Origin: Zhongshania marina
GTDB lineage: Bacteria; Pseudomonadota; Gammaproteobacteria; Pseudomonadales; Spongiibacteraceae
DNA: 64,000 bases
NCBI RefSeq assembly: GCF_002915595.1
Contig: NZ_PQGG01000036.1
Coordinates: 1-64,000 of the forward strand
Direction of reading: 5' to 3'
Both the position numbers and the translations under genes were made by a program. Shown here in pieces: positions 22,622 through 54,921 of the stretch (positions are counted from its first letter, which is position 1; every line of letters begins with the position of its first letter). The notes beneath the pieces are model-generated. The model had not been told where the DNA came from. It searched no databases and worked only from the letters and a program-made list of their open reading frames with translations.

Positions 22622-24937
22622 TTAGAAATCCCAGTTAACTCGTGCGCCAACAACACGAGGAGAGTTCAAAACTTGGTTACGTCCAAAGTCATCAACAAAG
22701 ACCACTTCGTTGTAAACCTCATCCAGAACGTTCTCGCCAAATATTGTTAACTGCAGCCCCCAAGGATTGTAAAAATAGCTTACGCGAGCGTTATACAAAT
22801 TGTAGGACTCACGCGCATAAAGGTCGGAGTTCTGCGGCAAAAAGTAAAAGCCATCGTTGTAATAAGTATCTACACCAATCTCAATCGCGCCATCACCGAC
22901 AGGAATACTCTGGTTCACACCAAAGGTGTAAGTTAATTCAGGGGTTCTTACGATTCGATTGCCACTGAAGTCACGTGCCGGTAGCGGAAAGGTGCCGCCT
23001 TCGCCAAACGCCAAACCGGTATCTTCATCATAACCACGCCCGTCTGGGTAAGATGTGTATTCAGAGTCCAATACACTAACAGCACCGAACATCGCCAAAC
23101 CTGGGTTCCAATTAGGCATGGGCGTCCATACAAAATCTGCCTCTGCACCCGATATTTCTGAATCGCCGGCATTGTCGTAACTCACCACACCACCAGACGC
23201 TAATGCCACAAATCCGGTTAGCAAATTCTGCTGTTCGATATAAAACACCGCCGCGTTTAAGCGCAAATTGCCGTCTAACAGATCTGTTTTAATACCCAGC
23301 TCGTAAGATTCAACCTGCTCTTCTTCTACACTCTCTGGTGCGTCAAGTAGGTTAACCGTGTTGTAGGTCGGACTTTTGAATGCCCGCCCCCAAGAGGCGT
23401 AAATTTGCGTGTCGTCATCAAAGGGACGCCATTGAAAGGCGACTTTTGGCGACAACTGATGAGAGGTCAAGGTTGGCACGTCGTCAGAGCGCAGCAAGAT
23501 CTCGTCACCATCGCCATCAACAGTCGCTAAGCGAGACTTTAATAGATTTCGTTCTTCTTCTTGGTAACGCAAGCCAAAGGTAAGATCCATAGACGGCGAC
23601 AGGAAGAAAGTGCTTTGCACATATGCCGAATAGGACTCACTATCTAGCACGCCGCCAGACAATAACCGAACACCTTCACTGACGTTCGGCAATCCAACCA
23701 CATTTAGCAAGCCACCCAATAGCCCTGTTAGTGAATCTGCCAATGGAACTGGCAATGTTGTTAAGGCATTGGGTGCAACATCAAACGCTATCGGATCGAA
23801 ACCGCCGCTGGAAGAAAGGTAGTAAAGACCAGCCACCCACTCCATATGCTCACTCAAGTAGCTGTCTTCATTCGACAAAAACTGCAGCTCAAGCGTTTGC
23901 TGCTCAGCTAGCTGTACAATGGAGCGAATATTGATAACGGGTAATTCACTTTTATCAAAATCAGCCTGCACAAAGGGTGCATCAACCTCTTGATCGGAGC
24001 CAATCATCTTTATATCTACACCAGGCAACTGCCAATCAAGTGTAAATGACACGAGGTAAGACTCAGAGGTGGCTCCCGCCAGCGAATCAAAGCTCAATTT
24101 GCGATCAGCTTTAGGGTCTTGCGGGAACGCTATACCTAATACCGGTGCGGTGCGGGTATTCTCAAACGCCAAACCTGAGTTTCCGCTACCCTCAGACATA
24201 GACCCAGACAAGGTTAATGCGAGCGTATCGGAAATATCCCAGCGAATTTTTGCGCGGCCACCCCGAGAGTAGACATCGATAATAGGGCCAGCATCATTGC
24301 TGTAGTAATTGTCGTGCTCGCTAGAAAATAGCGCGACGCTGGCGGCAAGCCCTTCAACTAAAGGCAAGTTCAAAAAGATTAAGCCATTCTGCTCGCCGTA
24401 ATCACCAAGCTCTAGTTTCATGCTACCGAAAAATTCATCTGCGGGAGCAGGAGTAATAATATTAACCGCACCGCCCGTTGCATTCCGGCCGAACAAAGTA
24501 CCTTGAGGCCCCTTTAATACCTCTACTCGCTCAACCTTACCGAGGGTGTCTGAACTGCCCTGCGCACCGAGCAAGGCGACGCCGTCAAGATAAAAAGGTA
24601 CGCTGGGATCCGCACCGGGTAAAAAGGCATCGGTGCCCACACCACGCAAATAGGCAACATTAAAGCCCACCGCATTCGTCACGGTTAAGCCTGGGGTAAT
24701 TCTCTCTAGGTCTTGAGCACTTTCTATACCAAAAGCATCAAGTTTTTCATTACTAAACGCGGTAATTGCAATAGGAACATCTTGGGCGTTTTCTTCACGC
24801 TTCTGGGCCGTGACTACAACCTCTTCAATCAATCTATTTGTTTGCTTTTTTCCGGCTTGGCCGACTTCCTGTGAATTCACGCCAGCCGAAGACGCCAGCG
24901 CTATTAGCGTCACCGGCAGCCAATTATTATGCTTCAT
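22622..24937 (-). CDS. TonB-dependent outer-membrane receptor 2
   Basis: 771 aa. A Sec signal peptide ends near SQ in GVNSQEV, followed by a TonB box-like IEEVVVTAQKREEN, a plug (LRGVGTDAF, VERVEVLKGPQGTLFGRNA, GGAVNI) and a barrel ending VNWDF. AGGAG lies 6 nt before the ATG. It is closely similar along its length to receptor 3, with an almost identical plug, indicating tandem duplication together with the downstream small-protein gene. The barrel carries a hydrophobic segment (bases about 23660-23790; LPVPLADSLTGLLGG) similar in composition to the small proteins. An ATCGTCG-type palindrome is centred about 100 bp upstream. The ligand is probably hydrophobic but unknown. Confidence 0.94.
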   Translation of the reverse strand: MKHNNWLPVTLIALASSAGVNSQEVGQAGKKQTNRLIEEVVVTAQKREENAQDVPIAITAFSNEKLDAFGIESAQDLERITPGLTVTNAVGFNVAYLRGVGTDAFLPGADPSVPFYLDGVALLGAQGSSDTLGKVERVEVLKGPQGTLFGRNATGGAVNIITPAPADEFFGSMKLELGDYGEQNGLIFLNLPLVEGLAASVALFSSEHDNYYSNDAGPIIDVYSRGGRAKIRWDISDTLALTLSGSMSEGSGNSGLAFENTRTAPVLGIAFPQDPKADRKLSFDSLAGATSESYLVSFTLDWQLPGVDIKMIGSDQEVDAPFVQADFDKSELPVINIRSIVQLAEQQTLELQFLSNEDSYLSEHMEWVAGLYYLSSSGGFDPIAFDVAPNALTTLPVPLADSLTGLLGGLLNVVGLPNVSEGVRLLSGGVLDSESYSAYVQSTFFLSPSMDLTFGLRYQEEERNLLKSRLATVDGDGDEILLRSDDVPTLTSHQLSPKVAFQWRPFDDDTQIYASWGRAFKSPTYNTVNLLDAPESVEEEQVESYELGIKTDLLDGNLRLNAAVFYIEQQNLLTGFVALASGGVVSYDNAGDSEISGAEADFVWTPMPNWNPGLAMFGAVSVLDSEYTSYPDGRGYDEDTGLAFGEGGTFPLPARDFSGNRIVRTPELTYTFGVNQSIPVGDGAIEIGVDTYYNDGFYFLPQNSDLYARESYNLYNARVSYFYNPWGLQLTIFGENVLDEVYNEVVFVDDFGRNQVLNSPRVVGARVNWDF

Positions 24938-25015
24938 TTCTTGCTCCTGATTACTTACCTATTAGCAATCTGAAAATTACTAACGAAAAATACTTATTAC
25001 AAATTATCACTACAA

Positions 25016-25057
25016 GTATCACCCCGTATCGTCGAAAACGACGATACGGGGTGATAC
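25016..25057. repeat. 19-bp perfect palindrome with AAAA centre
   Basis: The arms 25016-25034 and 25039-25057 are exact reverse complements. The inner part (25028-25045) is a member of the ATCGTCG-N4-CGACGAT motif set. It lies between the small protein gene (25105) and receptor 2. No T-run follows on either strand, so it looks more like an extended operator than a terminator, though it could also limit read-through. Confidence 0.75.
25028..25045. promoter_or_regulatory. operator candidate 1 (ATCGTCG-N4-CGACGAT)
   Basis: ATCGTCG-AAAA-CGACGAT is a perfect match, 90 bp upstream of the receptor 2 start (24937). Confidence 0.7.
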
Positions 25058-25104
25058 AAGCTCAAAAAAGACTCAATTTAATAATAGACAAACAAGCTTT
25101 GTGC

Positions 25105-25497
25105 TTATAAACCTGCGGGGGCAAGCTGGAGCGGCATAATTAAGATGTTGCCAAGACTAACCGTCGTCAAAAGCTGGCCACCTATTCCGAGAAATGGCGC
25201 AAAAGCATCGCTGACCAGCAATTCGCCAACGACAGGAATACCGCCAGAAATCACCGCATCAGCAGCCTCACTGCCTAATACTTGACTAACAAGCGGCGAC
25301 AACACCGACGATCCAGCCGAACTTACGCCGCCCAAGCCCAAATCTGGAAAAGCACTCAAAGACGGAATACCACCGCCACCCAGACCAGCCAGCAGGCCAC
25401 CCAACACCGGAATGCTATCTAGGGACTGGGCATTCGCAGTCATCGCCGTTGAAAGCACACAGCCAGCAAATAGCAATTTCATATTATTTATTTTCAT
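25105..25497 (-). CDS. small secreted Gly/Leu/Pro-rich protein, receptor-associated (family C)
   Basis: 130 aa. The signal peptide ends TANA|Q near residue 24. The mature chain is hydrophobic, Gly/Leu/Ser-rich and Cys-free, with IPVLGGLLAGLGGGGIPSL at its N-terminus, GGIPVVGELL in the middle and ILIMPLQLAP near the C-terminus. These last two match positions in the protein at 22036 closely, so the two are paralogues. GAGG lies 6 nt before the ATG. It follows receptor 3 by about 60 nt on the same strand, probably in one transcript. Function unknown; conserved pairing with receptors suggests a surface or periplasmic partner. Confidence 0.78.
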   Translation of the reverse strand: MKINNMKLLFAGCVLSTAMTANAQSLDSIPVLGGLLAGLGGGGIPSLSAFPDLGLGGVSSAGSSVLSPLVSQVLGSEAADAVISGGIPVVGELLVSDAFAPFLGIGGQLLTTVSLGNILIMPLQLAPAGL

Positions 25498-25555
25498 TTT
25501 TAGCCTCTTTCTAATACACGGGCGTTAAGTACATCATTACGCGACCAAATCGCTA

Positions 25556-27889
25556 TTAAAACTCCCAATTCACTCGTGCACCTACCACCTTGGGCGAGTT
25601 CAAGCTTTGGTTGCGTCCAAAGTCATCAACAAACACGACCTCGTTGTATTCAGTATCAGTGATATTTTCACCAAATACGGTTAATCGAACGCCCCAAGGA
25701 TCATAGATATAACTCACCCTAGCGTTATACAAGGTATACGACTCACGCGCATACAGATCTGAATTCTGCGGCAAGAAGTAAAAACCGTCGTTGTAATACA
25801 GATCTGCACCGAACTCTAAAGCGCCGTCACCAAGAGGTATCGACTGGTTTAAGCCAAAGGTATATGTCAGCTCTGGCGTACGAACAATGCGGTTACCTTT
25901 AAAGTCTCTGGCTGGCAATGGAAAGGTACCGCCGTTACCAAAGGCCAAACCTGTGTCTTCATCATAACCGCGACCTTCTTTGTACTCGGTATACTCAGAA
26001 TCAAGGAAACTAGCCGCGCCAAACAGCACCAAGCCAGGATTCAAGTTGGGCATTGGTGAGAGCAGGAAGTCAAACTCGGCACCTCTGATTTCTGAGTTAC
26101 CCGCATTGGCGTAGTTAACAACACCACCCGAAGCTAACGCCACAAACCCTGTCAGCAAGTTTTCTTGCTCAATATAAAACAACGCCGCATTTAAGGTTAG
26201 ATTTTGATCAAAGAGCTGCGACTTAAAGCCAAGCTCATAGGAGTCAACTCGCTCCTCCTCAACCTCTTCTGGACTGTCTAACAAGTTAACTGTGTTGTAA
26301 GTAGGGCTTTTAAATGCTCTCGCCCACGACGCGTAAATTTGCGTGTCATCATCGAAGGGCCGCCACTGCAAGGCAATCTTTGGCGACATTTGCTCGGCGC
26401 GAAGCTCGGGAACCTTGTCTTCACGAATCGTCAGCGTGGAGCCATCCTGCCCTGCCACCTCCGCTTTGGCATTTAGCAGATTACGCTTCTCTTCCTGATA
26501 GCGCGCACCCAAGGTTAAATCCCAGTTGTCTCCTAGCTTTAATGTACCTTGCATATAGGCGGAGTAGGCTTCGCTGTCCAAAACACCATAAGCCAGCACC
26601 CGAACACCGTCACCCAAATTCTGCAGACCTAATAAGCTACTCACGTCATTTAGCAAGCCAGACAACTCGCCGCCAAGTGGAATTGGTAAACTTGTTAATG
26701 CACTAGGCAATACATCAAAGGCGATGGGATCAAAGCCGCCGCTAGACTCTATGTAATAAAGTCCTGCCACCCACTCAAAATACTCGGAGAAAGGTGTTTC
26801 AGCGTTCGACAAAAACTGCAATTCCGCGGTTTTTTGCAAAGCCAGCTGAACAATCGACTCAATATTAATGATAGGTAAGGCGCTCTTATCAAAGTCCGCC
26901 CGCACAAATGGAGCCGACAGCTCTTGATCGGAACCGATAAACTTAACGTCGACGCCGGAGAGACGCCAATCTATGGTCACAGAATACAATTCTGATTCCG
27001 TTTCGGCCCCAGCCATCGAGTCAAAACTGACATGGCGATCTGCCTTGGGATCTTTAGGCAAAGCCGCACCCAATACTGGCGCAGGGCGGGTCAACTCAAA
27101 GGCCAAGCCCCCATTATTGGCCGCCTCTTGCTTAGAGCCCGCTAAAATAATCGCCAGGTCATCGGTAATGTCCCAGCGCAACTTTAATCGCCCGCCTCGG
27201 GCATATACATCAATCACCTCGCCGACATCATTGGTGTAGTAATTGTCGCGCTCATTGGTAAAAGCAGTGAACGTCGCAGCTAATTTATTTTCGACTAAAG
27301 GCACATTCACATAAATTTGGGCGTTACGCTCGCCATAGTCGGCAAACTCTAATTTTAAATCGCCTAAAAACTCCTCACCGGGCTCCGGCGTCACAATATT
27401 GATCGCACCGCCAGTTGCGTTACGACCAAACAACGTGCCCTGCGGCCCCTTTAGAACCTCTACTCGCTCCACGCGACCCAGGGTGTCGCTACTGCCCTGC
27501 GCACCAAGTAGTGCAACACCATCAAGATAAAACGGTACGCTGGGGTCTGCGCCGGGTAAAAATGCATCAGTACCAACACCGCGCAAATACGCGACGTTAA
27601 AGCCCGCCGCACTGGTAACAGTAAAACCAGGCGTAATGGTCTCTAAGTCTTGAGCGCTCTCGATTCCGAAAGCATCGAGTTTTTCATTACTAAAGGCGGT
27701 GATAGCAATGGGGACGTCTTGCACATTTTCTTCACGCTTCTGGGCGGTGACCACCACCTCCTCGAGCAATCTATTTGTTCTTTTGCCCGACGCGGCCTCT
27801 TCCGGCACCTGAGCAGAAGCCGCAATTGAAGCCGACAACCCAGCAGCAATAATCGCCAAACTTAAGCTCGTTCTTTTTCTTATAGTCAT
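25556..27889 (-). CDS. TonB-dependent outer-membrane receptor 3
   Basis: 777 aa. Signal peptide MTIRKRTSLSLAIIAAGLSA... ends near ASA|Q. TonB box-like LEEVVVTAQKREEN, plug with LRGVGTDAF and VERVEVLKGPQGTLFGRNA, barrel ending VNWEF. It is a close paralogue of receptor 2. The barrel segment encoded near 26600-26720 (LPIPLGGELSGLL, LLGLQNLGDG) is hydrophobic like the small exported partner. An operator candidate is 176 bp upstream. Duplicate receptors with duplicate partners suggest related but distinct ligands or different expression conditions. Confidence 0.94.
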   Translation of the reverse strand: MTIRKRTSLSLAIIAAGLSASIAASAQVPEEAASGKRTNRLLEEVVVTAQKREENVQDVPIAITAFSNEKLDAFGIESAQDLETITPGFTVTSAAGFNVAYLRGVGTDAFLPGADPSVPFYLDGVALLGAQGSSDTLGRVERVEVLKGPQGTLFGRNATGGAINIVTPEPGEEFLGDLKLEFADYGERNAQIYVNVPLVENKLAATFTAFTNERDNYYTNDVGEVIDVYARGGRLKLRWDITDDLAIILAGSKQEAANNGGLAFELTRPAPVLGAALPKDPKADRHVSFDSMAGAETESELYSVTIDWRLSGVDVKFIGSDQELSAPFVRADFDKSALPIINIESIVQLALQKTAELQFLSNAETPFSEYFEWVAGLYYIESSGGFDPIAFDVLPSALTSLPIPLGGELSGLLNDVSSLLGLQNLGDGVRVLAYGVLDSEAYSAYMQGTLKLGDNWDLTLGARYQEEKRNLLNAKAEVAGQDGSTLTIREDKVPELRAEQMSPKIALQWRPFDDDTQIYASWARAFKSPTYNTVNLLDSPEEVEEERVDSYELGFKSQLFDQNLTLNAALFYIEQENLLTGFVALASGGVVNYANAGNSEIRGAEFDFLLSPMPNLNPGLVLFGAASFLDSEYTEYKEGRGYDEDTGLAFGNGGTFPLPARDFKGNRIVRTPELTYTFGLNQSIPLGDGALEFGADLYYNDGFYFLPQNSDLYARESYTLYNARVSYIYDPWGVRLTVFGENITDTEYNEVVFVDDFGRNQSLNSPKVVGARVNWEF

Positions 27890-28393: not shown

Positions 28394-30007
28394 ATGCAAG
28401 ATCAACAGAATTCACCTGCCGATTACAAGGATATCGACGTTATTGTCGCTGGAGCGGGCCACAATGGTTTGGTTGCCTCCTGCTATCTTGCGAAGGCCGG
28501 CCTAAAAACCTTGGTTGTAGAGGCGCACGAAACCGCCGGCGGTATGACCGCAACCAACCCAATGGCACCCGAAGCGCCCGACCATATGATTAATGAGGCC
28601 TCGATTCACGCCTCACTGTTTCGCCTTTCACCTATCGCGCAAGAATTAGAGCTGGAAACCAAGTACGGCCTGCGTCAACGCCGTATCGACCCCTGCCACG
28701 TTCAGCTAAGCCAGGACGGTGATGAGTCTATCGGAATGTGGAATGACCCACGCCGCACCGCTGAAGAGATCAAATATTTTTCTAAAAAAGACGCTGCTGC
28801 GTGGATGGATCTGTCAAACACCATAGATCGTGCCATGAAGATTGGTCTGCCGTTGATGAATACCAATGCTCATCGCCCCAGCCCTGCCGCAGTATTGCGC
28901 ACGATGGGCGGCGCCATTCGACACGCTCGCCACATCCCCGCAATCGTCAAATTAATGACTAACTCCCACGCTGCCGCGCTGGAAGAAATGTTTGAAAGCG
29001 ATATGGTTCGCGCCTGTTTGCTAACCGGCCTTCCATTCATGGAGTTCCGTTCAGATTTAAGCTCTTTCTGCATGATTTACTTGGCGGCACTGCAAAGTCA
29101 GGGCATCACCATGTTTGAAGGTGGTACCGGCGCCTTCCCAAAAGCATTAATTCGCTGTCTTGAAGACCACGGCGGCTCAGTTCGCACCGGCGCGAAGATA
29201 GAAGAAATCATCATCAAAGATGGCCGCGCTGCAGGTGTAAGAATTGCCGGCGGCGAAGAGATTTTCGCTAAAAAAGGCGTCGTAACGGCCTTCAGCCCCA
29301 AAATGGTACTCAACCATCTATTACCAGAAGGTCTTTTGGATCACAAAACCGCTGTCACCGCCAAGCACATTCCGACTGCCAGCCGCGGCATCGCCGACTT
29401 CAAACTAAACATTGCCTTAAAAGGCCGTATCGAGCCCCGCCGCCATTCAGAGTGGCGTAGAAAGCGCGGCTGGGATGCGGACTTACGCCTACCAACTCTG
29501 CAGTGGGCTACCTATGAGCAGGGCATAAAAGCGTACGAAGACTGTCAGCGCGGCGAAATTCCAGAAATCATTGCTGGCTTAGGACAAGTAACCACCGCGT
29601 TTGATCCAAGCATGGCGCCTGAAGGTCACGATACCTATTGGTTCTGGTCTGGCCTTGTTCCCTTCAAGCCAAACATTGGCTGGGAAAAAGCACGCGACCA
29701 AATCAGCGACATGATAACCAAAGACTCAGCTAAATATTACGAAGGCATTGAAGAGCTTGAAATCGCGCGCCGCCCACTTGCGCCGCCAGATATCGAAAAG
29801 CGCTTTCATGCCATCGACGGCAGTGTTTACCACGTTGACCCCTATGTAACGCGCTTTGGACCTGGCCGTCCTGCATTTTCATTAGGTGGCTATAAAACAC
29901 CCGTACCAGGCTTGTTCCTAAGCGGATCAGGAACACACCCCAGCGCCGGTATTTGCGGTATGCCTGGGCGCAACTCAGCTATGACGGCAATAAAGAACAT
30001 GAAGTGA
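28394..30007 (+). CDS. phytoene-desaturase-like FAD-dependent oxidoreductase
   Basis: 537 aa. The N-terminal dinucleotide-binding motif VIVAGAGHNGLVASCYLAKAG (about residues 16-36) and the following ETAGGM are typical of the CrtI/phytoene-dehydrogenase-like superfamily. The C-terminal FAD site is visible in PGLFLSGSGTHPSAGICG (about 506-523). There is no carotenoid gene cluster nearby, so this is more likely one of the many CrtI-like oxidases or isomerases acting on other hydrophobic substrates. It is the first gene of a plus-strand pair with the membrane protein at 30051, 43 nt apart, ended by a strong terminator. Confidence 0.88.
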   Translation: MQDQQNSPADYKDIDVIVAGAGHNGLVASCYLAKAGLKTLVVEAHETAGGMTATNPMAPEAPDHMINEASIHASLFRLSPIAQELELETKYGLRQRRIDPCHVQLSQDGDESIGMWNDPRRTAEEIKYFSKKDAAAWMDLSNTIDRAMKIGLPLMNTNAHRPSPAAVLRTMGGAIRHARHIPAIVKLMTNSHAAALEEMFESDMVRACLLTGLPFMEFRSDLSSFCMIYLAALQSQGITMFEGGTGAFPKALIRCLEDHGGSVRTGAKIEEIIIKDGRAAGVRIAGGEEIFAKKGVVTAFSPKMVLNHLLPEGLLDHKTAVTAKHIPTASRGIADFKLNIALKGRIEPRRHSEWRRKRGWDADLRLPTLQWATYEQGIKAYEDCQRGEIPEIIAGLGQVTTAFDPSMAPEGHDTYWFWSGLVPFKPNIGWEKARDQISDMITKDSAKYYEGIEELEIARRPLAPPDIEKRFHAIDGSVYHVDPYVTRFGPGRPAFSLGGYKTPVPGLFLSGSGTHPSAGICGMPGRNSAMTAIKNMK

Positions 30008-30050
30008 AAACTTCATTTACCCAAAATAAGCACACGAGAGGATTAAGACT

Positions 30051-30884
30051 ATGTCTTTAATGGATAAGCTAATGCAGCCAATGATCGGGGGGACATTACC
30101 TGTACCCGCCGATTACGCAGCGAATGAACTAGTGGGTAACCTATTTACGGTTTGGGCAGGGGGGTTCGGCATTGCAGTTATCCCTTGGGCGCTGTATTGC
30201 TTCTTTAAGAAAGGGAACGACATTCCTTTACTTATGATTTTCGGCGGCCTAATTTGCTCATTGATTGAGCCAATGCTCGATCACCTAGGCCACCTGTGGT
30301 ACCCAACCAACCTGCCTGGTCCTGCATTTATAGGTTACGACTTAAATATTCCTTATTTAATTCCACCTTGCTATGTCTTCTTTATCTCTATGACCGGCTA
30401 CTGGGCTTATACCCGCATGAAAGCCGGCCTAACAGTGAAGGGCGTATTCATTACCTGGTTCTTGATTGCAATGACTGACGTCATCATGGAAATGCCTGGT
30501 ACTGCAACACAAGCCTACATTTACTATGGCGATGCCTCGTTTAAAGTATTCGGCTTCCCACTAGCTTGGGGCTGGTTGAACGGTACATCTATGTTGCTAG
30601 TTGGCTTCCTGCTGTACTTGATTGAACCTTATCTGCGCGGCTGGAACCGTCTATTTATTATTCCGGTTTCCGTTGTTGCAATGGGCGCCTCTTACGGCAT
30701 GACCGCGTGGCCATACTTCATGTCACTTAACCATGACATGCCTTGGATCGCGACTCGTCTTCTCACCCTGCTGTCTTTGGTTCTTTGCCTAATGGTTGTG
30801 CGCTTTACTGCCGCCATTGTCGCCAGCGGCCACGAAGCGAAAAACCCAATCGAGAAACTGAACGGCAACCCCGTTCCAGCGTAA
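30051..30884 (+). CDS. multi-TM membrane protein (AveC-like?), copy 1
   Basis: 277-aa polytopic inner-membrane protein with about seven hydrophobic helices. Conserved-looking features are IEPMLDHLGHLWYP (about residues 72-85), acidic DVIMEMP in a helix (about 146-152) and YIYYGDASFKV. These have direct counterparts in the protein at 33321 (LEPVVDLLGNAVHP, ALVEQIP, WVYYGYQPFKI), so the two are paralogues. The pattern recalls the AveC-like membrane family, but I am not certain. Buried Asp/Glu residues suggest a catalytic or ion-coupled role. AGAGGA precedes the ATG, and it is co-transcribed with the flavoprotein. Confidence 0.75.
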   Translation: MSLMDKLMQPMIGGTLPVPADYAANELVGNLFTVWAGGFGIAVIPWALYCFFKKGNDIPLLMIFGGLICSLIEPMLDHLGHLWYPTNLPGPAFIGYDLNIPYLIPPCYVFFISMTGYWAYTRMKAGLTVKGVFITWFLIAMTDVIMEMPGTATQAYIYYGDASFKVFGFPLAWGWLNGTSMLLVGFLLYLIEPYLRGWNRLFIIPVSVVAMGASYGMTAWPYFMSLNHDMPWIATRLLTLLSLVLCLMVVRFTAAIVASGHEAKNPIEKLNGNPVPA

Positions 30885-30889
30885 TACCC

Positions 30890-30925
30890 TTCAGGCTAGG
30901 CTCTCCTCTTTTGTACTAGCCTGAA
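30890..30925. repeat. 10-bp inverted repeat before terminator
   Basis: TTCAGGCTAG (30890-30899) and CTAGCCTGAA (30916-30925) form a stem with a 16-nt loop directly ahead of the terminator at 30932. Confidence 0.55.
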
Positions 30926-30931
30926 ATTCTA

Positions 30932-30970
30932 ACCCGTCAAATACTCACGCGGTATTTGACGGGTCTTTTT
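30932..30970 (+). terminator. rho-independent terminator
   Basis: A perfect 13-bp stem, ACCCGTCAAATAC with GTATTTGACGGGT, has a 7-nt loop and is followed by CTTTTT. It separates the 28394-30884 pair from the genes after 31014. Confidence 0.92.
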
Positions 30971-31013
30971 AAAGATCCACCCACTTTTGCTCTATTTAAA
31001 TTAGATAACGATA

Positions 31014-31634
31014 ATGTCGACTTACGAAGATAATATGTCAGCCGTGAAAGAAACTAAGGCAACAGACAAGACTCAAGAAAAGCATATGCCAGGCGACGAA
31101 ATGATCTGGTTGTTTTTGCTGGGCGATATGGCGTGCTTCTCACTTTTCTTTTGCATGTTTGCCTACTACCGCCTAGACGAAATCGAACTATTTCGTCAGT
31201 CTCAGGCGCAACTAGACGTTAATATTGGCTCGATCAATACCTTATTCCTACTGTGTAGCTCTTGGCTGGTGGTAATGGCCCTTAAAGCTGCACGTAAAGG
31301 CTTGGCGAAATACGCCTCCTTTTCTATGGCAGGTGCCGCCCTATTTGGCACTGGCTTTGTTATTCTGAAAACCCTCGAATATCAGCACAAAGCGGCATTA
31401 GACATAGACTATCTCAGCAATAATTTCTATGTCTTCTACTACATACTTACCGGCATGCACTATTTCCATGTGGTTATTGGTGTACCGCTGCTCATTTATT
31501 ACGCCGTGTCGCTTTACCGTAGTAAACATATAAGCCAAACCGACGTAGACAATTTGGAAAGCGGCGCACTGTATTGGCACATGGTAGATTTACTCTGGAT
31601 TATTATTTTTCCTCTCGTTTATTTGATTCCTTAA
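31014..31634 (+). CDS. cytochrome c oxidase subunit III-like (NorE-like) membrane protein
   Basis: 206 aa with five hydrophobic helices. It shows the subunit III pattern: LGDMACFSLFF in helix 1, TLEYQ in the middle and LTGMHYFHVVIGV (about residues 142-154), then YWHMVDLLWIIIFPLVY at the end. This short form resembles NorE and orphan CoxIII proteins. The gene is 3 nt upstream of a subunit IV-like gene. No subunit I, II or NorB gene occurs in the window, so this is not a complete oxidase locus. It may be an accessory to another membrane oxidoreductase. The ribosome site is weak; an in-frame ATG at 31035 is an alternative start. Confidence 0.87.
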   Translation: MSTYEDNMSAVKETKATDKTQEKHMPGDEMIWLFLLGDMACFSLFFCMFAYYRLDEIELFRQSQAQLDVNIGSINTLFLLCSSWLVVMALKAARKGLAKYASFSMAGAALFGTGFVILKTLEYQHKAALDIDYLSNNFYVFYYILTGMHYFHVVIGVPLLIYYAVSLYRSKHISQTDVDNLESGALYWHMVDLLWIIIFPLVYLIP

Positions 31635-31637
31635 ATT

Positions 31638-31922
31638 ATGCGTAACTTAATTTTTTCAAAAGAAACTGTTATCTGGATCGTACTGATGTTGATCAGTATT
31701 TTCTCTTGGGTGGTAGGTATCAACCACGGCATGCTTTTTGAAAAAGCCTTTTTAGAGTCTGCCGCAATTTTGATACTCGCCTTCTTCAAAGTCCGCTTAG
31801 TCATCATGCATTTCATGGAAGTCGGACACGCACCCACTACGTTGCGCCTATCCTGTGAAGCTTGGGTCTTTGTAAGCTGTATTGGGCTAATCATTATGAC
31901 TGGGGGACAAGTTCAGGTTTGA
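31638..31922 (+). CDS. cytochrome c oxidase subunit IV-like (NorF-like) protein
   Basis: 94 aa with three hydrophobic helices, matching prokaryotic cytochrome oxidase subunit IV/NorF in length and in the pattern KVRLVIMHFMEVGHAP (about residues 51-66). It lies 3 nt after the subunit III-like gene, certainly in the same transcript. Subunit III/IV-like pairs without catalytic subunits occur in several proteobacteria, but their job is not settled. In this window their neighbours are lipid-type genes (FadL channel, membrane paralogues, WS/DGAT). Confidence 0.83.
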   Translation: MRNLIFSKETVIWIVLMLISIFSWVVGINHGMLFEKAFLESAAILILAFFKVRLVIMHFMEVGHAPTTLRLSCEAWVFVSCIGLIIMTGGQVQV

Positions 31923-31980
31923 TTATGTTCATATTTTAATAAGCAAAATACTACTCGAACTCAATAATACTAAAAATAAA

Positions 31981-31999
31981 GCCTGCGAATTTCGCAGGC
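31981..31999. terminator. hairpin between subunit IV-like and FadL genes
   Basis: GCCTGCGA-ATT-TCGCAGGC is a perfect 8-bp stem in the 103-nt gap. The minus-strand side runs into a T-rich stretch and the plus side does not, so on the plus strand it may act as a partial terminator or mRNA stabiliser. Confidence 0.45.
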
Positions 32000-32025
32000 A
32001 ACAATCGCCACCTAGGATCGCCGAT

Positions 32026-33303
32026 ATGAAAACCCCTTATGGCAGAAATTTATTTCTGCTACTGGCAGCGCTTTGTTTATCTCCAATGTCCTTCGCTGCC
32101 AATGGCCTATACTTAACCGCCTACGGCGCGGAACAAACCGGACTAGGAGGCGCAGACATTGCCAACTCAGACGACACCGGATCACTTATCGCAAATCCAG
32201 CTGGCTTGGCAAATATTGAACTATCCCACTCTGACTATAGCGCAACAGGATTTTCAATAGCGCGAATAGCACACCGCGACGAATACAATCATGACGTTCG
32301 GGTAAGCAATGAACTTGGTGGGGTGGTCGGTGCCGGCTACGCGCAGCGATTAGCAGACAAAAATATTGTCATTGGCGCCGGCGTCAATGTTGCCGGTGGA
32401 CTTGGCTATGTTTACGACAATATAAATACTGCCTTCGGAACCAAGGACGACCTCAATGCAATGTTCTCTTTATTCCGCTTTTCTGGCGGTGCGGCATGGA
32501 ATATTAGCGAGGACTTAAGACTGGGATTTGTCGTCGCCGCAACCTATGCCACTGCCGAACAAACACTGTTTGAAGACACATCCGTAGCGGACGCAAACCA
32601 AACTTTCTTTGGTGTAAAAATCAGAGATTTAAACGGCTGGGGAAGCGATATAAAAATCGGCATGCAATATGATGTTAGTCCCGAGCTCACCGTGGGCTTG
32701 AACTACACCAGCCAGTCGAAAATTGATCTAGATGGCGGCAAGATGACCGTCAACTACAACGCCATTGGCAATGGCCGAGTAAAGTACAGCAATGTATCAA
32801 TGCGCGGATTAGAAACACCGCAGGAGTTTGGGATTGGTGCCCATTGGAAGCTAAAACCAGACTTTGCGATCGCCCTAGAAGCAAATTGGTTTGACTGGGC
32901 GGGCGCAACGCGCCGATTAGAAATCAAAGCCAGCAAGCCCAACGGTCCAGCACCGGTAGACTCACTGTCACAAATCAGCTCAGTTAAAATGCACAGCCGT
33001 ATTGTGTACAGCATCGGAATAGAAAAAACACTTAGCTCCGGCGACATCTTGCGGGCAGGATACTCTTATCACAGTTTAATTATTAATAAATCCAGCTTAT
33101 CACCTACCTTTGCGCTGACACCCCAGCACGACTACGCGCTAGCGTATGGCACCAAACTTAATAAGCACTGGTTGATGGACATAGCATTTGCGTATCAACC
33201 TAGAAAGTCAGTGCAATACAACAATCCCGAGCTTCCATTTGGCGATTCAGTAGAAACCAACGAATCTTTTTCAGCACATTTCACCCTCAGCAAACTACCC
33301 TAA
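32026..33303 (+). CDS. OmpP1/FadL-family outer-membrane channel
   Basis: 425 aa. The signal peptide ends SFA|A near residue 25. The mature N-terminus NGLYLTAYGAEQTGLGGADIANSDD and the NPAGLA motif (about residues 57-62) are the conserved FadL hatch features. The rest is a barrel that ends in FTLSKLP. FadL proteins take up long-chain fatty acids and other hydrophobic compounds such as aromatics by lateral diffusion through the outer membrane. AGGA precedes the ATG. It is flanked by subunit III/IV-like genes and the second membrane paralogue, so the cluster probably handles a hydrophobic compound. Confidence 0.92.
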   Translation: MKTPYGRNLFLLLAALCLSPMSFAANGLYLTAYGAEQTGLGGADIANSDDTGSLIANPAGLANIELSHSDYSATGFSIARIAHRDEYNHDVRVSNELGGVVGAGYAQRLADKNIVIGAGVNVAGGLGYVYDNINTAFGTKDDLNAMFSLFRFSGGAAWNISEDLRLGFVVAATYATAEQTLFEDTSVADANQTFFGVKIRDLNGWGSDIKIGMQYDVSPELTVGLNYTSQSKIDLDGGKMTVNYNAIGNGRVKYSNVSMRGLETPQEFGIGAHWKLKPDFAIALEANWFDWAGATRRLEIKASKPNGPAPVDSLSQISSVKMHSRIVYSIGIEKTLSSGDILRAGYSYHSLIINKSSLSPTFALTPQHDYALAYGTKLNKHWLMDIAFAYQPRKSVQYNNPELPFGDSVETNESFSAHFTLSKLP

Positions 33304-33320
33304 GCGTGTAGGTACCTATC

Positions 33321-34109
33321 ATGAATGAAATTGACCTAGTATATACTCAAGCACCCACGGGCTTAATTATGCCCGCCATGCCGCAGTTGATAACAACCTC
33401 CGTCTACGGAATCGCCGCCCTCATTTTTGTTATTTTCGCGATTCGCCTTGCAATAAAACAAAAAAGTGCCATTCCAATCTACCTTCTTATCGGCTCTATG
33501 CTGACCTTATATTTAGAACCCGTGGTCGATTTACTCGGTAATGCAGTACACCCACAAATCGGCCAATTTAATGTCATTACCACCAACGGCCATCCGGTAC
33601 CCCTTGCGGTATTAATTGGCTATATATGGTATTTCGCCGCATTGCCGCTGCTGTGCTACCAGAAGATATTAGATCAAAGTCTGAATCAACACTTTGTGTG
33701 GAAGAGTTTTGCTGGCGTCATAATAAGTGCCGCACTTGTAGAGCAAATTCCGCTATATTTTGGTGTGTGGGTTTATTACGGCTACCAACCATTTAAAATT
33801 GGCTTTATGCCCTCATGGTGGTTTTTTGCAAACACCGCCGCCGTTATTCTGCCCTTCCTTAGCATCTACGCCCTAATGCCCAAATTGCGCGGAGCACAGC
33901 AAATTATTATCTGTTTTATTATGCCCTGCGCTGCCTTTATGGGCCACGCCGGCGCGGGCTGGCCTATGTATAATGCACTGGGCACAGACACCGAAACCAC
34001 ATCTTCCACACTCATTCAGTTTGCGAGTATTGCCAGCTCGCTGTTTGCTATTTTAATAGTGTGGACGTATATGCAAATGATTAATCTACCTAAATCTTCA
34101 AAAAATTAG
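33321..34109 (+). CDS. multi-TM membrane protein (AveC-like?), copy 2
   Basis: 262 aa with about seven hydrophobic helices, paralogous to the protein at 30051. Shared positions are the LEPVVDLLGN segment (about residues 61-70), ALVEQIP (about 138-144) and the WVYYGYQPFKIGF stretch (about 148-160). It is 17 nt after the FadL gene, so co-transcription is likely. No family can be assigned with confidence; AveC-like is my best guess. Two copies with conserved intramembrane acidic residues around orphan oxidase subunits suggest parts of one membrane system. Confidence 0.74.
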   Translation: MNEIDLVYTQAPTGLIMPAMPQLITTSVYGIAALIFVIFAIRLAIKQKSAIPIYLLIGSMLTLYLEPVVDLLGNAVHPQIGQFNVITTNGHPVPLAVLIGYIWYFAALPLLCYQKILDQSLNQHFVWKSFAGVIISAALVEQIPLYFGVWVYYGYQPFKIGFMPSWWFFANTAAVILPFLSIYALMPKLRGAQQIIICFIMPCAAFMGHAGAGWPMYNALGTDTETTSSTLIQFASIASSLFAILIVWTYMQMINLPKSSKN

Positions 34110-34170: not shown

Positions 34171-35544
34171 CTACAAACCTAGCGCCTCTTCCAGCTCATT
34201 CATTGCCTCACCACTGTATACAGCAATTCGTTGCATAGACGGCAAGCTATCTCGGCAGGCGGTATAACCAATATTAATTTCATCGGCATAACTCGACATA
34301 GTGATATTCAAAGCCTGTCCATGAAACAGTACCGACGGGCCGTATATATGTTCAATTCTGGCACCATTAAAATACATACGCTGACGCGGCCCCATCACAT
34401 TAGAAATAACCAAATTAGATGCTGGCCTTAAATAGCCGCCTAAACCCAAAATCGTTTCGGTAATATAGGGTGCCAATACAATAGAGGTATATGCCTCAAT
34501 GGCATCTACCGTAAGCGTACTTTGCAATGATTTTGCAGACTCGGTCGACTGGCTTACGGCCTTCAGCCGCGCTAATGGATCATCAAGATCAGTACCCAAG
34601 GTCGCGTAAACAAAACTCAGGGCATTGCCAATGGCATCATCACCCGCCGGACGAATACTCACAGGAATCTGGCCCACTAACGATTTCTTAGGCAATACAT
34701 TCTGCTCGCTCAAATAACGACGCAATGCCGCACCGGTAACCGCAAGAAACACATCGTTAATTTTTACCCCCGCTTTATCTGCAATACGCTTCAATTGCGC
34801 CAACTCAAAACGCTGGGTTGCATAGCGACGATGCGGAGAAATTCTGCCATTCAAGACCGACTTTGGCCCTTGATAAGGGGCAAAAAGCGATGAATTAGCA
34901 TTGAGGTAGGCCTCTTTACCAAGAGTAGACAGTGCGCGGCGAATATTAGACAACCTAGCCCAAGCAGACACTTGGCTTGCAGCTGTCTGCTTTTTTAATT
35001 TTGCCGCGGCAAGTTTTTCAGGCGACGACTTTAGGCCAATTGTCCAGGGCGCAGGCATATTTCGCGCATCAGGATCGGTGCTAAAACATTTCGCCATCAA
35101 CATCGACGCCGCCATACCATCCATTTGGGCATGGTGGAGTTTTAAATAAATCGCAAAGCGACCACCCCCGATGCCTTCAATGACATAACATTGCCAAAGA
35201 GGCTTCTTTCTATCGAGTTTATGTGAGTGCAGCCGCGATACCATAATCCCCAGCTCGGCCTCGCCGCCCGGCGCTGGCAGTGCGCTGTGGCGCAGATGGT
35301 ATTCCATATCGAGTTGATCGTTGGGCGTGATTTCCCAGCGAGGGATAAGCCCCTTGGCCAAGCGATAATTAAACGGCGGTGCAAACGTAAGGGATTTTCG
35401 CCACTCAGCAACCAGGCGCTGCACAAAGCCTTCATCACCCTCTGGGCAACTCATAAAGATTAAAGGACCAAAATGCGCAGGCGCTTGTTCTTTCTCGACG
35501 TACAACCATGCGGCATCCATTGGGTTAATCGCAACGCGTTCCAT
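34171..35544 (-). CDS. wax ester synthase/diacylglycerol acyltransferase
   Basis: 457 aa WS/DGAT enzyme that esterifies acyl-CoA with fatty alcohols or diacylglycerol to make storage lipid. The catalytic HHxxxDG is HHAQMDG at residues 137-143. The family's second conserved region is seen as NVMGPRQRMYFNG (about 378-390), and the N-terminal MDAAWLYVE is typical. A palindromic operator candidate is 95 bp upstream of the start. It converges on the membrane protein gene with a shared terminator. It probably acts at the inner membrane, where lipid droplets form. Confidence 0.94.
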   Translation of the reverse strand: MERVAINPMDAAWLYVEKEQAPAHFGPLIFMSCPEGDEGFVQRLVAEWRKSLTFAPPFNYRLAKGLIPRWEITPNDQLDMEYHLRHSALPAPGGEAELGIMVSRLHSHKLDRKKPLWQCYVIEGIGGGRFAIYLKLHHAQMDGMAASMLMAKCFSTDPDARNMPAPWTIGLKSSPEKLAAAKLKKQTAASQVSAWARLSNIRRALSTLGKEAYLNANSSLFAPYQGPKSVLNGRISPHRRYATQRFELAQLKRIADKAGVKINDVFLAVTGAALRRYLSEQNVLPKKSLVGQIPVSIRPAGDDAIGNALSFVYATLGTDLDDPLARLKAVSQSTESAKSLQSTLTVDAIEAYTSIVLAPYITETILGLGGYLRPASNLVISNVMGPRQRMYFNGARIEHIYGPSVLFHGQALNITMSSYADEINIGYTACRDSLPSMQRIAVYSGEAMNELEEALGL

Positions 35545-35894: not shown

Positions 35895-36506
35895 TTGTCC
35901 ACCCGTAAAGCAAGTAACAAGAACGCCAGAAATATCATTCTTGAGGTGTCGACCCAGCTCTTTGCCAGACACGGTTTTGACGGCGTAACCATGCGCCAGA
36001 TTGCGACCGAATCAGGCTTTTCTATGCCATCAATTTACCATCACTTTGGCAATAAAGAAGACCTATTCAAAGCCGTTGAAGAAGAAATGTACAGTGCTCA
36101 CGCAGCAAACCTGCTACACCAGATCAACGCCAATGCCACCCCTGAAGAGCGTTTAAATAAATTCCTCTTCGCCATGTTTGAGCGCCTAGACTCAAACCCA
36201 GACTACCTAAAACTCCTGCAGCGAAACCTAGTAGACGGCTGGGAAGAAAACCAAGTTTTCCTCGTCGAAATGTCCCTGCAAAACGTAGTCAATGAACTTC
36301 GCCTGCTTCTCAATCAATACTCCCCAGGCAAAGGGGATGGCATTACGCCAGTAGCTATTTTTTCGATGATTCTCGGCTTTGTTACCATGACGCCGGTAAT
36401 ACGCCATCTCAAAAATAACGCAGCAAGCATCAGTGAAGACGACCCTCTACAGCGCAAAGTATTCGTCAATGCGGTGATGGATTTCATCAAATCTAACCAG
36501 CAATAA
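35895..36506 (+). CDS. TetR-family transcriptional regulator
   Basis: 203 aa. Helix-turn-helix at about residues 28-58 (VTMRQIATESGFSMPSIYHHFGNKEDLF), followed by a helical effector domain. It starts with TTG at 35895, preceded by AGGAAA. It sits between two copies of the 18-bp palindrome (35640 and 36571), which makes it one candidate for the protein that binds that motif; TetR dimers commonly bind palindromes of this size. The other candidate is the LuxR-type protein at 37523. Confidence 0.9.
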   Translation: MSTRKASNKNARNIILEVSTQLFARHGFDGVTMRQIATESGFSMPSIYHHFGNKEDLFKAVEEEMYSAHAANLLHQINANATPEERLNKFLFAMFERLDSNPDYLKLLQRNLVDGWEENQVFLVEMSLQNVVNELRLLLNQYSPGKGDGITPVAIFSMILGFVTMTPVIRHLKNNAASISEDDPLQRKVFVNAVMDFIKSNQQ

Positions 36507-36588: not shown

Positions 36589-36661
36589 ACAGCAAATCTC
36601 CTTACTCCTTAGTATTAGGGCTTATTTTTTCACCCCAAAATAAGTGACTCAGGAGACCGTA

Positions 36662-37423
36662 ATGGCTGGGCAAGTTTTGTTTATCACAGGTGCAGGAAGC
36701 GGCATCGGTCAGCTCTCGGCAAAACGGGCTCTGCAAAGCGGCTGGAAGGTCGCCGCCGTCGACGTCAACCAGCAAGGTTTAGATGCATTAGGTGCAAACT
36801 CCGACACGCTCCTAAAGCTACTCTGCGATATTACCGACCCACTCGCGGTTCAAAGCGCCGTCGAGCAATGTGAAAACATTCTTGGCCCCATCGACAGATT
36901 AACCAACGCCGCAGCGATTATGCCCCTGAGTGAAATCATGGATCAGGGTGGCGACATGATCCACCGCATTATGAACATCAACTACGGTGGCATGGTCAAC
37001 GTCAGCCAAGCTGCTCTGCCCAAAATGCTAGCGCGCGGACGGGGCGAGTTTATAAATTACGCATCAATGGCTGGGCACTGGCCCATTTTATATATGGGCG
37101 CCTACAATGCCTCTAAACATGCTGTTGCGGCCTACACCGAAGTACTGTTTCACGAAACCCGCAATAGCGGTGTGCGCATAGTTTGTGTTTGCCCCCCCAT
37201 TGTGGCAACCCCCCTACTTGAGCAAGCCAAAAGCTGCTGGCCCAAAATTTTTGACATCTTTCCACCCATCACGCCAGAAACCGTTCTCGATGAAATAGAA
37301 CGCAAATTACCTGGCAAATCGCTGTGGGTATTCCCTGGCCCAATGACCAGAATGAGCTGGATTTTGCGGCGCTGGATGCCAAGTACCGTATGGCGACTGG
37401 TGCACCGTATCGAAAAGCGCTGA
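36662..37423 (+). CDS. short-chain dehydrogenase/reductase
   Basis: 253 aa SDR with cofactor motif TGAGSGIG (about residues 9-16) and catalytic YNASK (about 150-154) preceded by a Ser in YASMAG. The usual NAG triad reads NAAA, an uncommon variant. An acidic residue in VAAVDVN suggests NAD(H). The ATG at 36662 has AGGAG (36651-36655) 6 nt upstream; a GTG at 36644 would add six residues but has no ribosome site. The C-terminal tail MSWILRRWMPSTVWRLV is hydrophobic and basic and may associate with the membrane. Confidence 0.9.
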   Translation: MAGQVLFITGAGSGIGQLSAKRALQSGWKVAAVDVNQQGLDALGANSDTLLKLLCDITDPLAVQSAVEQCENILGPIDRLTNAAAIMPLSEIMDQGGDMIHRIMNINYGGMVNVSQAALPKMLARGRGEFINYASMAGHWPILYMGAYNASKHAVAAYTEVLFHETRNSGVRIVCVCPPIVATPLLEQAKSCWPKIFDIFPPITPETVLDEIERKLPGKSLWVFPGPMTRMSWILRRWMPSTVWRLVHRIEKR

Positions 37424-37522: not shown

Positions 37523-40264
37523 ATGAGCAGAAAAAAAGCCAACAACGTGCCCAAAAAAGTAGCGCCGAGCGCCTCGGAAAATACTAGTCAAGCCAATGCC
37601 AGCAAACACAATCTCAGCTCTCGTATCGCCAAGGCAAAAACCATTCCGCCACGACGGGCCGCAAACAGCTTAACGCGGCAATGCATCGCAGATTACGAGC
37701 AAGACCTAGATGCCAGCCGCCTTGTTGTCATACAAGCGCCGGCGGGCTTCGGCAAAACAACGGCAATGATGCAGCTCGTAGATGCAGATCGCCGAATGGG
37801 CAATGCAGTCGCATGGCTGACCTTAGACGACAGCGATAACGACGTATCCCGTTTTTTGCGTGGTTTCACCTTGGCAATGGCAAACGCCAATCCAGAGACT
37901 CCCCTACCCGGCACTAGCACCTCTCGCAATGCCGAGCTGGCCAACTGGATTATCGACAGCATTGAGGCTGCCGAAAACCCCACTAGTATTTATTTCGACA
38001 ATTTCGAAGTTCTGCAAAACCCTGTCGTAATTGGTCTAATACAACGCGGCACCAACTCTTTGCCGCCCGGCTCACGCTGTATTATTGGCAGCAGAAGAAG
38101 TCCCGACCTAGGCTTGGCCAAATTGCGCGCCAAAGGTCAATTGATAGAATTCAATGCCAATGATTTACGATTTTCTCAAGAAGAAGCCGCCTCATACCTT
38201 AGCTCACAACGCGGCGTTAATCTCAATACCCAGCAGCTAAACCACTTATACAGCAGCACAGAAGGTTGGGCTGTCGCCCTGTCGCTTGCCTCAATGGCAC
38301 TTCACGGCCGCAGCAATACCGACGAATTCATCAATTCCTTTTCAGGATCTAACGCCGCTGTTGCATCGTACCTCGCCGAAGATGTATTGAGCGCACTACC
38401 TGAAGATGTACAAAAGTTTTTATTACAAATTAGTATTTTGGACGAGATCAAAGAAGATTTATGTAACGCCCTCTGCCAACGTGAAGACAGCCTCACCTTG
38501 CTACAGCAGCTCTATGAACAAAATATTTTCGTCTCGCTAGCGGATGAGCAAAATCAAGTTTACAGCTTCCATGCGCTTTTCCATGACTTTCTGAGCAACC
38601 AGCTCCGCAAGGAATACCCTCAAGAAGTAGCCACCTTGCATGCCCGTGCCGCAGATGTATACCTCGCGGACGACCGCCCCATACCCGGCATACGCCACTG
38701 CCTAAAATCGGAACAATATACTCGGTCAATCGAGCTTATTCGGAAAAATACCAAACGCTTTTTAAATGATGGTCGACTGCGTTTGCTCGCCGGATTTCTA
38801 GCGCATTTACCCAATAGTGAAATTGAAAACAATCCCGACTTAAAACTGATTAAAGCCTGGAGTACAGCGTTTACCAGAAGCCCGCGAGAAGCGCTGAATA
38901 TTATTGGTGAGCTCAATCCAGAAGCCTTAACAAATGACGACACCGCTAATCTGATGGTGCTACGACCAATGCTATTAGGCATGATGGATAATATCGACGA
39001 AGGTCATCGACTAGGCTTGGACGCGCTGCCCATTGTTAGCAAGGACAATCATTTTGCCCGAGCCATGTTGTCTCAAGCACTGACACAAACCAGTATTATT
39101 ATGGGCGAGCACGACGCAGCCCGAGGCTATGTAGACCAAGCGCGAGGAAGTGAATCTGGCGGTGCCGGCACCTTTGGCGCCGTGCTCGCAGAATCTGCCG
39201 AAGGCTTGCTAGATTTAATGAAGGGCCATTTAAAGCAAGCCACCCAACGCATGCGACATGCAATGGACACATTTTCCGCGTCGCGCAAAGGAGACCGCCG
39301 AGGCATTACTCTTGCAGCCATTCAGCTTGGCGAAGCATTATATGAAGCGGATGAAATAGACGAAGCCCGAAAACTATTCGACGCTTACGCACCCCTAGTG
39401 CGCGACATCGGTCCGGCAGACGCTCTGATAAGCGCCCACATCCTCCATGCCAGAATCCTTTTCGACACCGATCACGATAGCGCCTTTGAATTATTAACCG
39501 AGCTAGAAAATCGAGGTCACGCCCTACAACTTCCTAGAGTAGTTGCCTCTGCACGATTACAACGTGCCAATTTTTGGCTTAGCAATGGCAATATCGACGG
39601 CGCCGATGAACAAATTAGACTCGCTGAGCAAGGCTTTAACTGGCCCGATCTGAGCACTCGCTGGTATATCGCCAACGACAGCCTAACACCGGAAATATGC
39701 CGCCTACGCTGGAACTTACGCAGCGGAAAAGTGGGGCTGGCACTACCAAAACTCAGAGACGCGCTAAAAGAAGCAGAACGCACCCAGCACGTCAGACGCG
39801 CCTTAAAATTAAGAATTTTACTCGCCGAAGCCCAGCACGAAGATGGTCAGCGCAATATGGCGCTTCGCACAATGGGTCGCGCCGTACGTATGGCAAATGA
39901 AGAAGGCTTTATACGCACATTTATAGAAGAAGGGCCAAAAGTCACGTCACTATTGCGCGACATGCAGCAACAGGGCTCAGACGCTGACTTCTCTTTAGGG
40001 GAGAATCTAGAACGGCGGCTTTCCAGCCTTTCGCAGCAAACCAATGCCGCCGTCGGAAATATGCCCGCCGACCCACTAACACCCAAAGAGCTACAGGTCT
40101 TGGCACTACTAGCCGAAGGTCTATCTAATATTGCAATGTCAGAACGCTTATTCGTTTCTGAATCAACGGTTCGCACCCACCTCCGTAGCATCAACCTCAA
40201 ATTAAACGCAGGTAACCGCACCGAAGCAGTAGTGATAGCACGCCGTATGGGCTTAATCACTTAA
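37523..40264 (+). CDS. MalT-like LuxR-family transcriptional activator
   Basis: 913 aa STAND-type regulator. The N-terminal NTPase has Walker A APAGFGKTT (residues 72-80) and Walker B-like SIYFDNFE (about 153-160). The middle is alpha-helical and TPR-like (about 400-830), and the C-terminus is a LuxR helix-turn-helix (LTPKELQVLALLAEGLSN to VRTHLRSINLKL, about 850-900). Such large activators multimerise on ATP and inducer binding and activate promoters from upstream sites. It starts 99 nt after the SDR gene. Six palindromes at 60-180 bp upstream of genes around it suit an activator, making it a leading candidate for binding them, but this is inference. It is not an autoinducer receptor of the short LuxR type. 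Confidence 0.93.
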   Translation: MSRKKANNVPKKVAPSASENTSQANASKHNLSSRIAKAKTIPPRRAANSLTRQCIADYEQDLDASRLVVIQAPAGFGKTTAMMQLVDADRRMGNAVAWLTLDDSDNDVSRFLRGFTLAMANANPETPLPGTSTSRNAELANWIIDSIEAAENPTSIYFDNFEVLQNPVVIGLIQRGTNSLPPGSRCIIGSRRSPDLGLAKLRAKGQLIEFNANDLRFSQEEAASYLSSQRGVNLNTQQLNHLYSSTEGWAVALSLASMALHGRSNTDEFINSFSGSNAAVASYLAEDVLSALPEDVQKFLLQISILDEIKEDLCNALCQREDSLTLLQQLYEQNIFVSLADEQNQVYSFHALFHDFLSNQLRKEYPQEVATLHARAADVYLADDRPIPGIRHCLKSEQYTRSIELIRKNTKRFLNDGRLRLLAGFLAHLPNSEIENNPDLKLIKAWSTAFTRSPREALNIIGELNPEALTNDDTANLMVLRPMLLGMMDNIDEGHRLGLDALPIVSKDNHFARAMLSQALTQTSIIMGEHDAARGYVDQARGSESGGAGTFGAVLAESAEGLLDLMKGHLKQATQRMRHAMDTFSASRKGDRRGITLAAIQLGEALYEADEIDEARKLFDAYAPLVRDIGPADALISAHILHARILFDTDHDSAFELLTELENRGHALQLPRVVASARLQRANFWLSNGNIDGADEQIRLAEQGFNWPDLSTRWYIANDSLTPEICRLRWNLRSGKVGLALPKLRDALKEAERTQHVRRALKLRILLAEAQHEDGQRNMALRTMGRAVRMANEEGFIRTFIEEGPKVTSLLRDMQQQGSDADFSLGENLERRLSSLSQQTNAAVGNMPADPLTPKELQVLALLAEGLSNIAMSERLFVSESTVRTHLRSINLKLNAGNRTEAVVIARRMGLIT

Positions 40265-42556: not shown

Positions 42557-42688
42557 AGCGGACCTCCCACAAAAACCTTGTGGCTATTTGACTAAGTGAT
42601 AACAATGTCGAAATTCTTTGGTCATTTCTTACGTTAAATAGACCGAATCGCAGTTACATTGATTCTTAGCAAAATACACCAAGAAGGA

Positions 42689-54899: not shown

Positions 54900-54921
54900 T
54901 CTACCGCCCTTAATCTTTGTC

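Follow-up and report, generated by a model that had tools for sequence, protein, structure and literature searches.

Gene content of the locus

The window, i.e. the whole stretch of 64,000 nucleotides of Zhongshania marina DNA that was analysed, carries six genes between positions 28394 and 34109, and a check of its open reading frames puts each of them where the preliminary description had placed it. In the list of features below, mem refers to the family of the two membrane proteins MemA and MemB, and tm4 to a second membrane protein family that is described further on.

22622-24937 and 25556-27889 (-): two TonB-dependent receptors (PF00593 and PF07715)
28394..30007 (+): CrtO/CrtI-like FAD oxidoreductase, crtO-like (Pfam Amino_oxidase and NAD_binding_8; NCBIfam CrtO model, 243.9 bits)
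30051..30884 (+): memA, 277-aa protein with seven predicted transmembrane (TM) helices, putative remote member of the AveC superfamily (profile link to AveC_like; topology; no Pfam match)
30932..30964 (+): terminator-like hairpin in the gap between memA and cox3 (14-pair stem, T run)
31014..31634 (+): cox3, orphan CoxIII, NorE-like (PF00510 COX3, 1.9e-11)
31638..31922 (+): cox4, orphan CoxIV, NorF-like (PF03626 COX4_pro, 6.3e-10)
32026..33303 (+): FadL/TodX outer-membrane channel (PF03349 Toluene_X, 1.9e-21)
33321..34109 (+): memB, 262-aa membrane protein, paralogue of memA (direct search, profile comparison, common motifs)
34171..35544 (-): wax ester synthase/DGAT (WS/DGAT; PF03007, 2.5e-66), which adjoins memB also in L030, L031 and G015
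35895..36506 (+): TetR regulator (PF00440), with a related regulator in L030, L031, L033, L034 and G015
36644..37423 (+): SDR dehydrogenase (PF00106)
37523..40264 (+): MalT-like LuxR regulator (PF17874 and PF00196)
40988..43922: acyl-CoA ligase (-) and acyl-CoA dehydrogenase (+), relatives of which adjoin the gene set in the Halieaceae MAG
48678..63701 (-): catabolic genes for beta-oxidation and Rieske dioxygenases, with orthologues elsewhere beside mem, memA or tm4-cox3

The FadL reading frame scores above the PF03349 cut-off (76.5 bits versus 29.7). The hairpin is also present in Z. aliphaticivorans (L030), and because it separates memA from cox3, the genes from crtO-like to memB may be organized as two transcription units. 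The two TonB-dependent receptors (22622..27889) probably serve substrate import. Elsewhere in the window, a phage-type integrase lies at the left edge together with a cluster of urea carboxylase, allophanate hydrolase, DUF1989 and ABC transporter genes (632-11546), which is unrelated to the mem/cox set, and a 1145-aa protein (44139-47576) has a weak right-handed beta-helix match and nothing else.

The MemA and MemB proteins

MemA retrieves MemB in a direct search at E 1.3e-8, the comparison of the two as profiles gives a probability of 97.8, and the motifs EPxxDxLG and YYGxxxFK, as well as a later glutamate (E147 in MemA), are common to both, which bears out their earlier designation as paralogues. 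The Z. marina genome encodes five members of this family. Searches of Pfam, NCBIfam and PADLOC with MemA and MemB return nothing usable, and the search for sequence relatives in the PDB gives a chance match only.

For the mem proteins, the averaged hydropathy and the positive-inside rule predict an external N-terminus and seven TM helices, TM stretches that were split by the script having been merged by eye. The mean numbers of Lys and Arg residues per loop alternate accordingly (approximately 0.5, 2.8, 0.5, 2.7, 0.7, 2.6, 0.4 and 2.2). In the predicted topology, the residues E73, P74, D77, P101, E147, Y158, Y159, G160 and P170 are on or near the non-cytoplasmic side. TM2 ends with the invariant (E/D)-P-x-x-(D/N), and TM4 with an invariant glutamate that is followed by YYG. 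The preliminary description referred to intramembrane acidic motifs; the motifs themselves are retained, but the predicted topology does not place them within the membrane, and a more fitting description is that of motifs at helix ends on the periplasmic side.

Conservation and distribution of the gene set

A search of species genomes finds MemA relatives in Zhongshania aliphaticivorans, Spongiibacter thalassae, a Halieaceae MAG, a Robiginitomaculum MAG and Pseudomaricurvus alcaniphilus, so that, together with the Z. marina window and another genome of this group, G015, seven memA genomes could be compared. The cox3-cox4 pair is found directly 3' of memA in all seven. The crtO-like gene is found directly 5' of memA in six, the exception being Pseudomaricurvus, where the cluster is rearranged and this gene is about 8 kb away. 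A memB gene in the same cluster and a related TetR regulator each accompany memA in six of the seven genomes; the Halieaceae MAG lacks this regulator in its gene set and has its second family member on another contig. The FadL, WS/DGAT and MalT-like regulator genes are seen with the set only in the genus-level group, which comprises four of these genomes.

The order crtO-like, memA, cox3, cox4 is common to Zhongshania, Spongiibacter, the Halieaceae MAG and Robiginitomaculum, which belongs to the Alphaproteobacteria. The set is therefore a coherent unit, as had been supposed, whose order is kept across families and into another class, and this is not the pattern of a chance synteny within one genus. 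The literature searches did not find a paper on the crtO-memA-cox3-cox4 gene set.

The mem family is present in 1 of 369 sampled Gammaproteobacteria, which is the genome of Z. marina itself, and in 1 of 289 genomes sampled from the class of Robiginitomaculum, again the Robiginitomaculum genome itself. Plasmid-borne members occur in Mycobacterium, Rhodococcus, Croceicoccus, Novosphingobium and Diaphorobacter, which are the source of what is known on the abundance in Actinomycetota. This rare and patchy occurrence fits horizontal spread. Most plasmid neighbours of mem genes are of the acyl-CoA, SDR, P450 or Rieske type. In M. avium, plasmid pP7a carries a mem homologue about 5 kb from a flavoprotein gene whose product is 53% identical to the flavoprotein of the window and is by far its best plasmid match.

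Relation to the AveC_like family

The Pfam model of AveC_like (PF17198) matches neither MemA, MemB nor nine other mem family members, and its search of the whole Z. marina genome gives only an 8-bit chance match outside the mem loci. The preliminary description had suggested a comparison with AveC, and a remote relationship is indeed found when profiles are compared: hhalign aligns a profile of 30 mem sequences with a profile of ten AveC_like sequences with a probability of 96.1 (P 2.9e-9, score 70.7), while the score is 19.8 for the reversed alignment, at most 27.9 for 200 block shuffles and at most 26.9 for the tm4 and Cox3 families. The AveC_like profile had been enlarged from five to ten sequences after a suggestive first comparison; against the earlier five-sequence profile, MemA alone and MemB alone are below significance. 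In the aligned columns, the EPxxD motif of the mem proteins corresponds to DPxxN/D of AveC_like, the Pro...Tyr pattern has its counterpart, and Glu...YYG corresponds to Glu...Y. On these sequence profiles, the mem family is taken as a remote homologue of AveC_like, outside PF17198 itself.

AveC, the spirocyclase of avermectin biosynthesis, and the AveC_like proteins share with the mem proteins the multi-TM architecture and the pattern of (E/D)Pxx(D/N), Pro...Tyr and Glu...Tyr. Several AveC_like proteins have a long N-terminal stretch and a C-terminal Cys-rich part, whereas the mem proteins have neither. The spiroketal chemistry is that of AveC, whereas the mem proteins, related to it by sequence profile, occur in a catabolic setting. 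AveC is thus a characterised relative, but its role in the tailoring of a lipophilic compound is not an unrelated one. True AveC_like proteins are found in Spongiibacter, on two mem-carrying plasmids and in further genomes, and in Spongiibacter crtO-like and FadL-like genes are located directly 5' of the AveC_like gene.

The orphan Cox3/Cox4 pair and the tm4 family

The COX3 and COX4_pro domains are encoded side by side in the window, as is characteristic of a NorE/NorF-type pair. Among the Pfam-scanned reading frames of the window there is neither a cytochrome oxidase subunit I or II nor a catalytic subunit I of a heme-copper oxidase or NO reductase, which agrees with the earlier notion of NorE/NorF-like subunits without a catalytic subunit; norB and norC are also absent from the window and the orthologous loci, to the extent that these were scanned. 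The NorE/NorF accessory proteins of cNOR, being the same two families encoded next to each other, are the closest named setting of the pair, but they accompany norB/norC, whereas the partner in the window is memA, and that of other copies is tm4. In Amphritea, a nor-type cluster has a subunit I gene, a Cox3/Cox4 pair, a NorQ-type gene and a VWA gene.

The tm4 proteins, an unassigned membrane family (about 240 aa, motif GPFxWxG...FW), adjoin orphan cox3-cox4 genes. The Cox3/Cox4 pair is expanded in the group of Z. marina: at E 1e-20, five cox3 matches are found in the Z. marina genome and eleven in G015; eight of the latter are beside tm4, one is beside memA and two are beside neither. The tm4-cox3 arrangement, mostly with cox4, is also seen in Mycobacterium, Rhodococcus, Pseudonocardia, Novosphingobium and Diaphorobacter. 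As tm4 adjoins cox3 in most other copies, memA takes the place of tm4 in the window, and as Cox3/Cox4 pairs have a tm4 neighbour more commonly than a mem neighbour, the partnership of MemA with Cox3/Cox4 is not an exclusive one. Co-divergence of tm4 and cox3 is not significant within one genome (r 0.24, P 0.17); for 20 pairs from many genomes the correlation, which includes shared ancestry, is r 0.41 (P 2e-4). Loci with tm4 include L043:13741-14454, L112:7979-8695, L037:31617-32345, L054:11237-11968 and L091:11234-12007, and further ones are L114-L119, L121, L123 and L125-L127, from Proteobacteria and Actinomycetota, with up to eight per genome.

Catabolic setting

Genes to the left of the set encode a P450, a Rieske oxygenase of the KshA type and a protein of the ADC family. 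To its right are genes for a CoA ligase, acyl-CoA dehydrogenases, a CoA-transferase, 3HCDH, hydratases, a thiolase, KASIII/DUF35, an alpha/beta hydrolase, an SDR and the alpha and beta subunits of a Rieske oxygenase. In the Halieaceae MAG, orthologues of the Rieske-ECH-SDR-hydrolase genes (46-76%) immediately adjoin crtO-memA-cox3-cox4; in G015 and Spongiibacter, such orthologues (63-90%) are found by tm4-cox3 loci. Orthologues of the beta-oxidation stretch adjoin another mem gene in G015 (63-90%). With FadL, the TonB receptors, the CoA ligase, the beta-oxidation genes and the Rieske oxygenases, the surroundings are those expected for uptake and catabolism of a hydrophobic compound, in agreement with the initial proposal, and no oxidase, transporter or carotenoid locus that has been named corresponds to the gene set. 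That the substrate is lipophilic and cyclic is a fair guess, and the KshA-type and ChsH2-type domains make a steroid-like compound possible.

Proposed function

We consider it about an even chance that the mem, cox and crtO-like genes encode a membrane conversion module within an island of genes for the catabolism of a lipophilic compound that is probably cyclic. The substrate would enter via FadL or a TonB receptor and dissolve in the inner membrane. There, MemA and MemB, as AveC-superfamily proteins integral to the membrane and with their invariant carboxylates and tyrosines together at the predicted periplasmic face, could carry out acid/base (or Lewis-acid) chemistry on the membrane-dissolved substrate, such as a dehydration, hydration, isomerisation or ring closure. 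The CrtO-like flavoprotein would catalyse a redox reaction of this molecule while it is held in the membrane, and Cox3/Cox4 would accompany MemA as a partner without catalytic activity, much as NorE/NorF do in the case of nitric oxide reductase. The products would be passed on to the CoA ligase and the beta-oxidation enzymes, and WS/DGAT may store acyl products. This explanation is likely in its outline. The analysis shows the gene set and how it is conserved, its catabolic surroundings, the remote homology of the mem proteins to AveC_like and their predicted topology; from these we infer the enzymatic role, the class of substrate, the direction of flow and the physical complex of MemA with Cox3 and Cox4.

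The location of FadL between memA and memB, the TonB receptors next to the set and the mem paralogues that adjoin TonB receptors elsewhere could also mean that the mem proteins are not enzymes but permeases or flippases that carry the hydrophobic substrate in the inner membrane, and that all genes of the set serve uptake, beginning at the TonB receptor and FadL and ending at the inner membrane. However, the characterised member of the remotely homologous AveC_like family is an enzyme, Pfam and NCBIfam show no match of the mem proteins to a transporter family, and two clustered paralogues with an oxidoreductase suit successive conversions better, such that a carrier function is rather unlikely. 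It is still less probable that Cox3/Cox4 serve an oxidase or NO reductase encoded elsewhere, for respiratory protection during degradation, without a direct link to MemA. The same pair accompanies the true nor cluster of Amphritea, and the Z. marina genome has other Cox3 copies, but the position of the pair directly 3' of memA in all seven memA genomes, and the eleven G015 copies, which are mostly in separate catabolic loci with their own tm4, suit a locus-specific role better. A locus for carotenoid or polyene modification, with a CrtO-type ketolase and with mem proteins as cyclases, is very improbable, since the flavoprotein, for which the beta-carotene ketolase CrtO is the closest named NCBIfam model (E 3e-72) and which belongs to the same flavoprotein superfamily as CrtO/CrtI over its full length, reaches only a quarter of the equivalog cut-off of 1000 bits, other carotenoid genes are not found nearby among the scanned window reading frames, and the neighbouring genes are catabolic, by which its identity as a carotenoid ketolase is rejected.

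If the proposed conversion module is right, the mem family, which has no annotation and occurs in marine Proteobacteria and as far away as on plasmids of Mycobacterium and Rhodococcus, gains a superfamily and a testable active site, AveC-type membrane chemistry reaches from antibiotic tailoring to catabolism, and a context is provided for many orphan CoxIII/CoxIV genes in genomes.

The AveC_like-VWA-NorQ arrangement

In Spongiibacter, the AveC_like gene is followed by a VWA gene and a NorQ-type AAA gene, with tm4-cox3-cox4 several kb upstream, and the same AveC_like-VWA-NorQ order is found in G015 and G012 (the loci are L135:11744-15446, L132:14277-18178 and L142:5800-9690). In each of these three genomes, the NorQ protein next to AveC_like is the sole CbbQ_C protein found. 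NorQ and NorD are a metal-insertion pair of a MoxR AAA protein and a VWA protein, and the insertion of non-heme iron into NO reductase requires both (PMC9976466). Such a pair of genes is located directly 3' of true AveC_like genes in three related genomes, but is absent from the Z. marina window. The Z. marina genome has a CbbQ_C protein of weaker match on contig C32, without adjoining mem, AveC_like or cox3/cox4 genes, and in the memA genomes G017, G424, G425 and G426 no CbbQ_C protein is found. MemA is thus independent of NorQ, and NorQ as a general partner of MemA is rejected.

As Cox3/Cox4 are encoded next to memA and VWA-NorQ next to AveC_like, two parts of the nor accessory set adjoin two branches of the superfamily. 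A speculative and on balance unlikely possibility is that the nor accessory set has been taken over, MemA forming with Cox3/Cox4 (NorE/NorF) a stable heteromer in which it replaces NorB, and the AveC_like branch obtaining a metal via NorQ/NorD. If this were true, AveC would be one of a superfamily of membrane enzymes that face the periplasm and depend on a metal. Whether AveC-type enzymes require a metal can be tested directly, given the recurrence of the AveC_like-VWA-NorQ order.

Other recurrent neighbours

TonB receptors are located within about 8.5 kb of six of the eleven G015 cox3 loci, where about 22% would be expected at random from 54 receptors in the 3.7 Mb of G015, which is a weak enrichment (P ~0.02 by a hand estimate). 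Small secreted Gly/Leu-rich proteins without a Pfam match adjoin the TonB receptors of the window (22036-22524 and 25105-25497), and similar ones are found by TonB receptors at L044:12927-13427 and L121:6708-7280. DUF7064/DUF7065-type proteins and APH/EcKL-type kinases are common to the M. avium plasmid locus and to the clusters around memA in Robiginitomaculum and Pseudomaricurvus; such genes are seen near mem genes at L033:9737-14943, L034:10069-15952, and L035:5910-6800 and 10312-11364.
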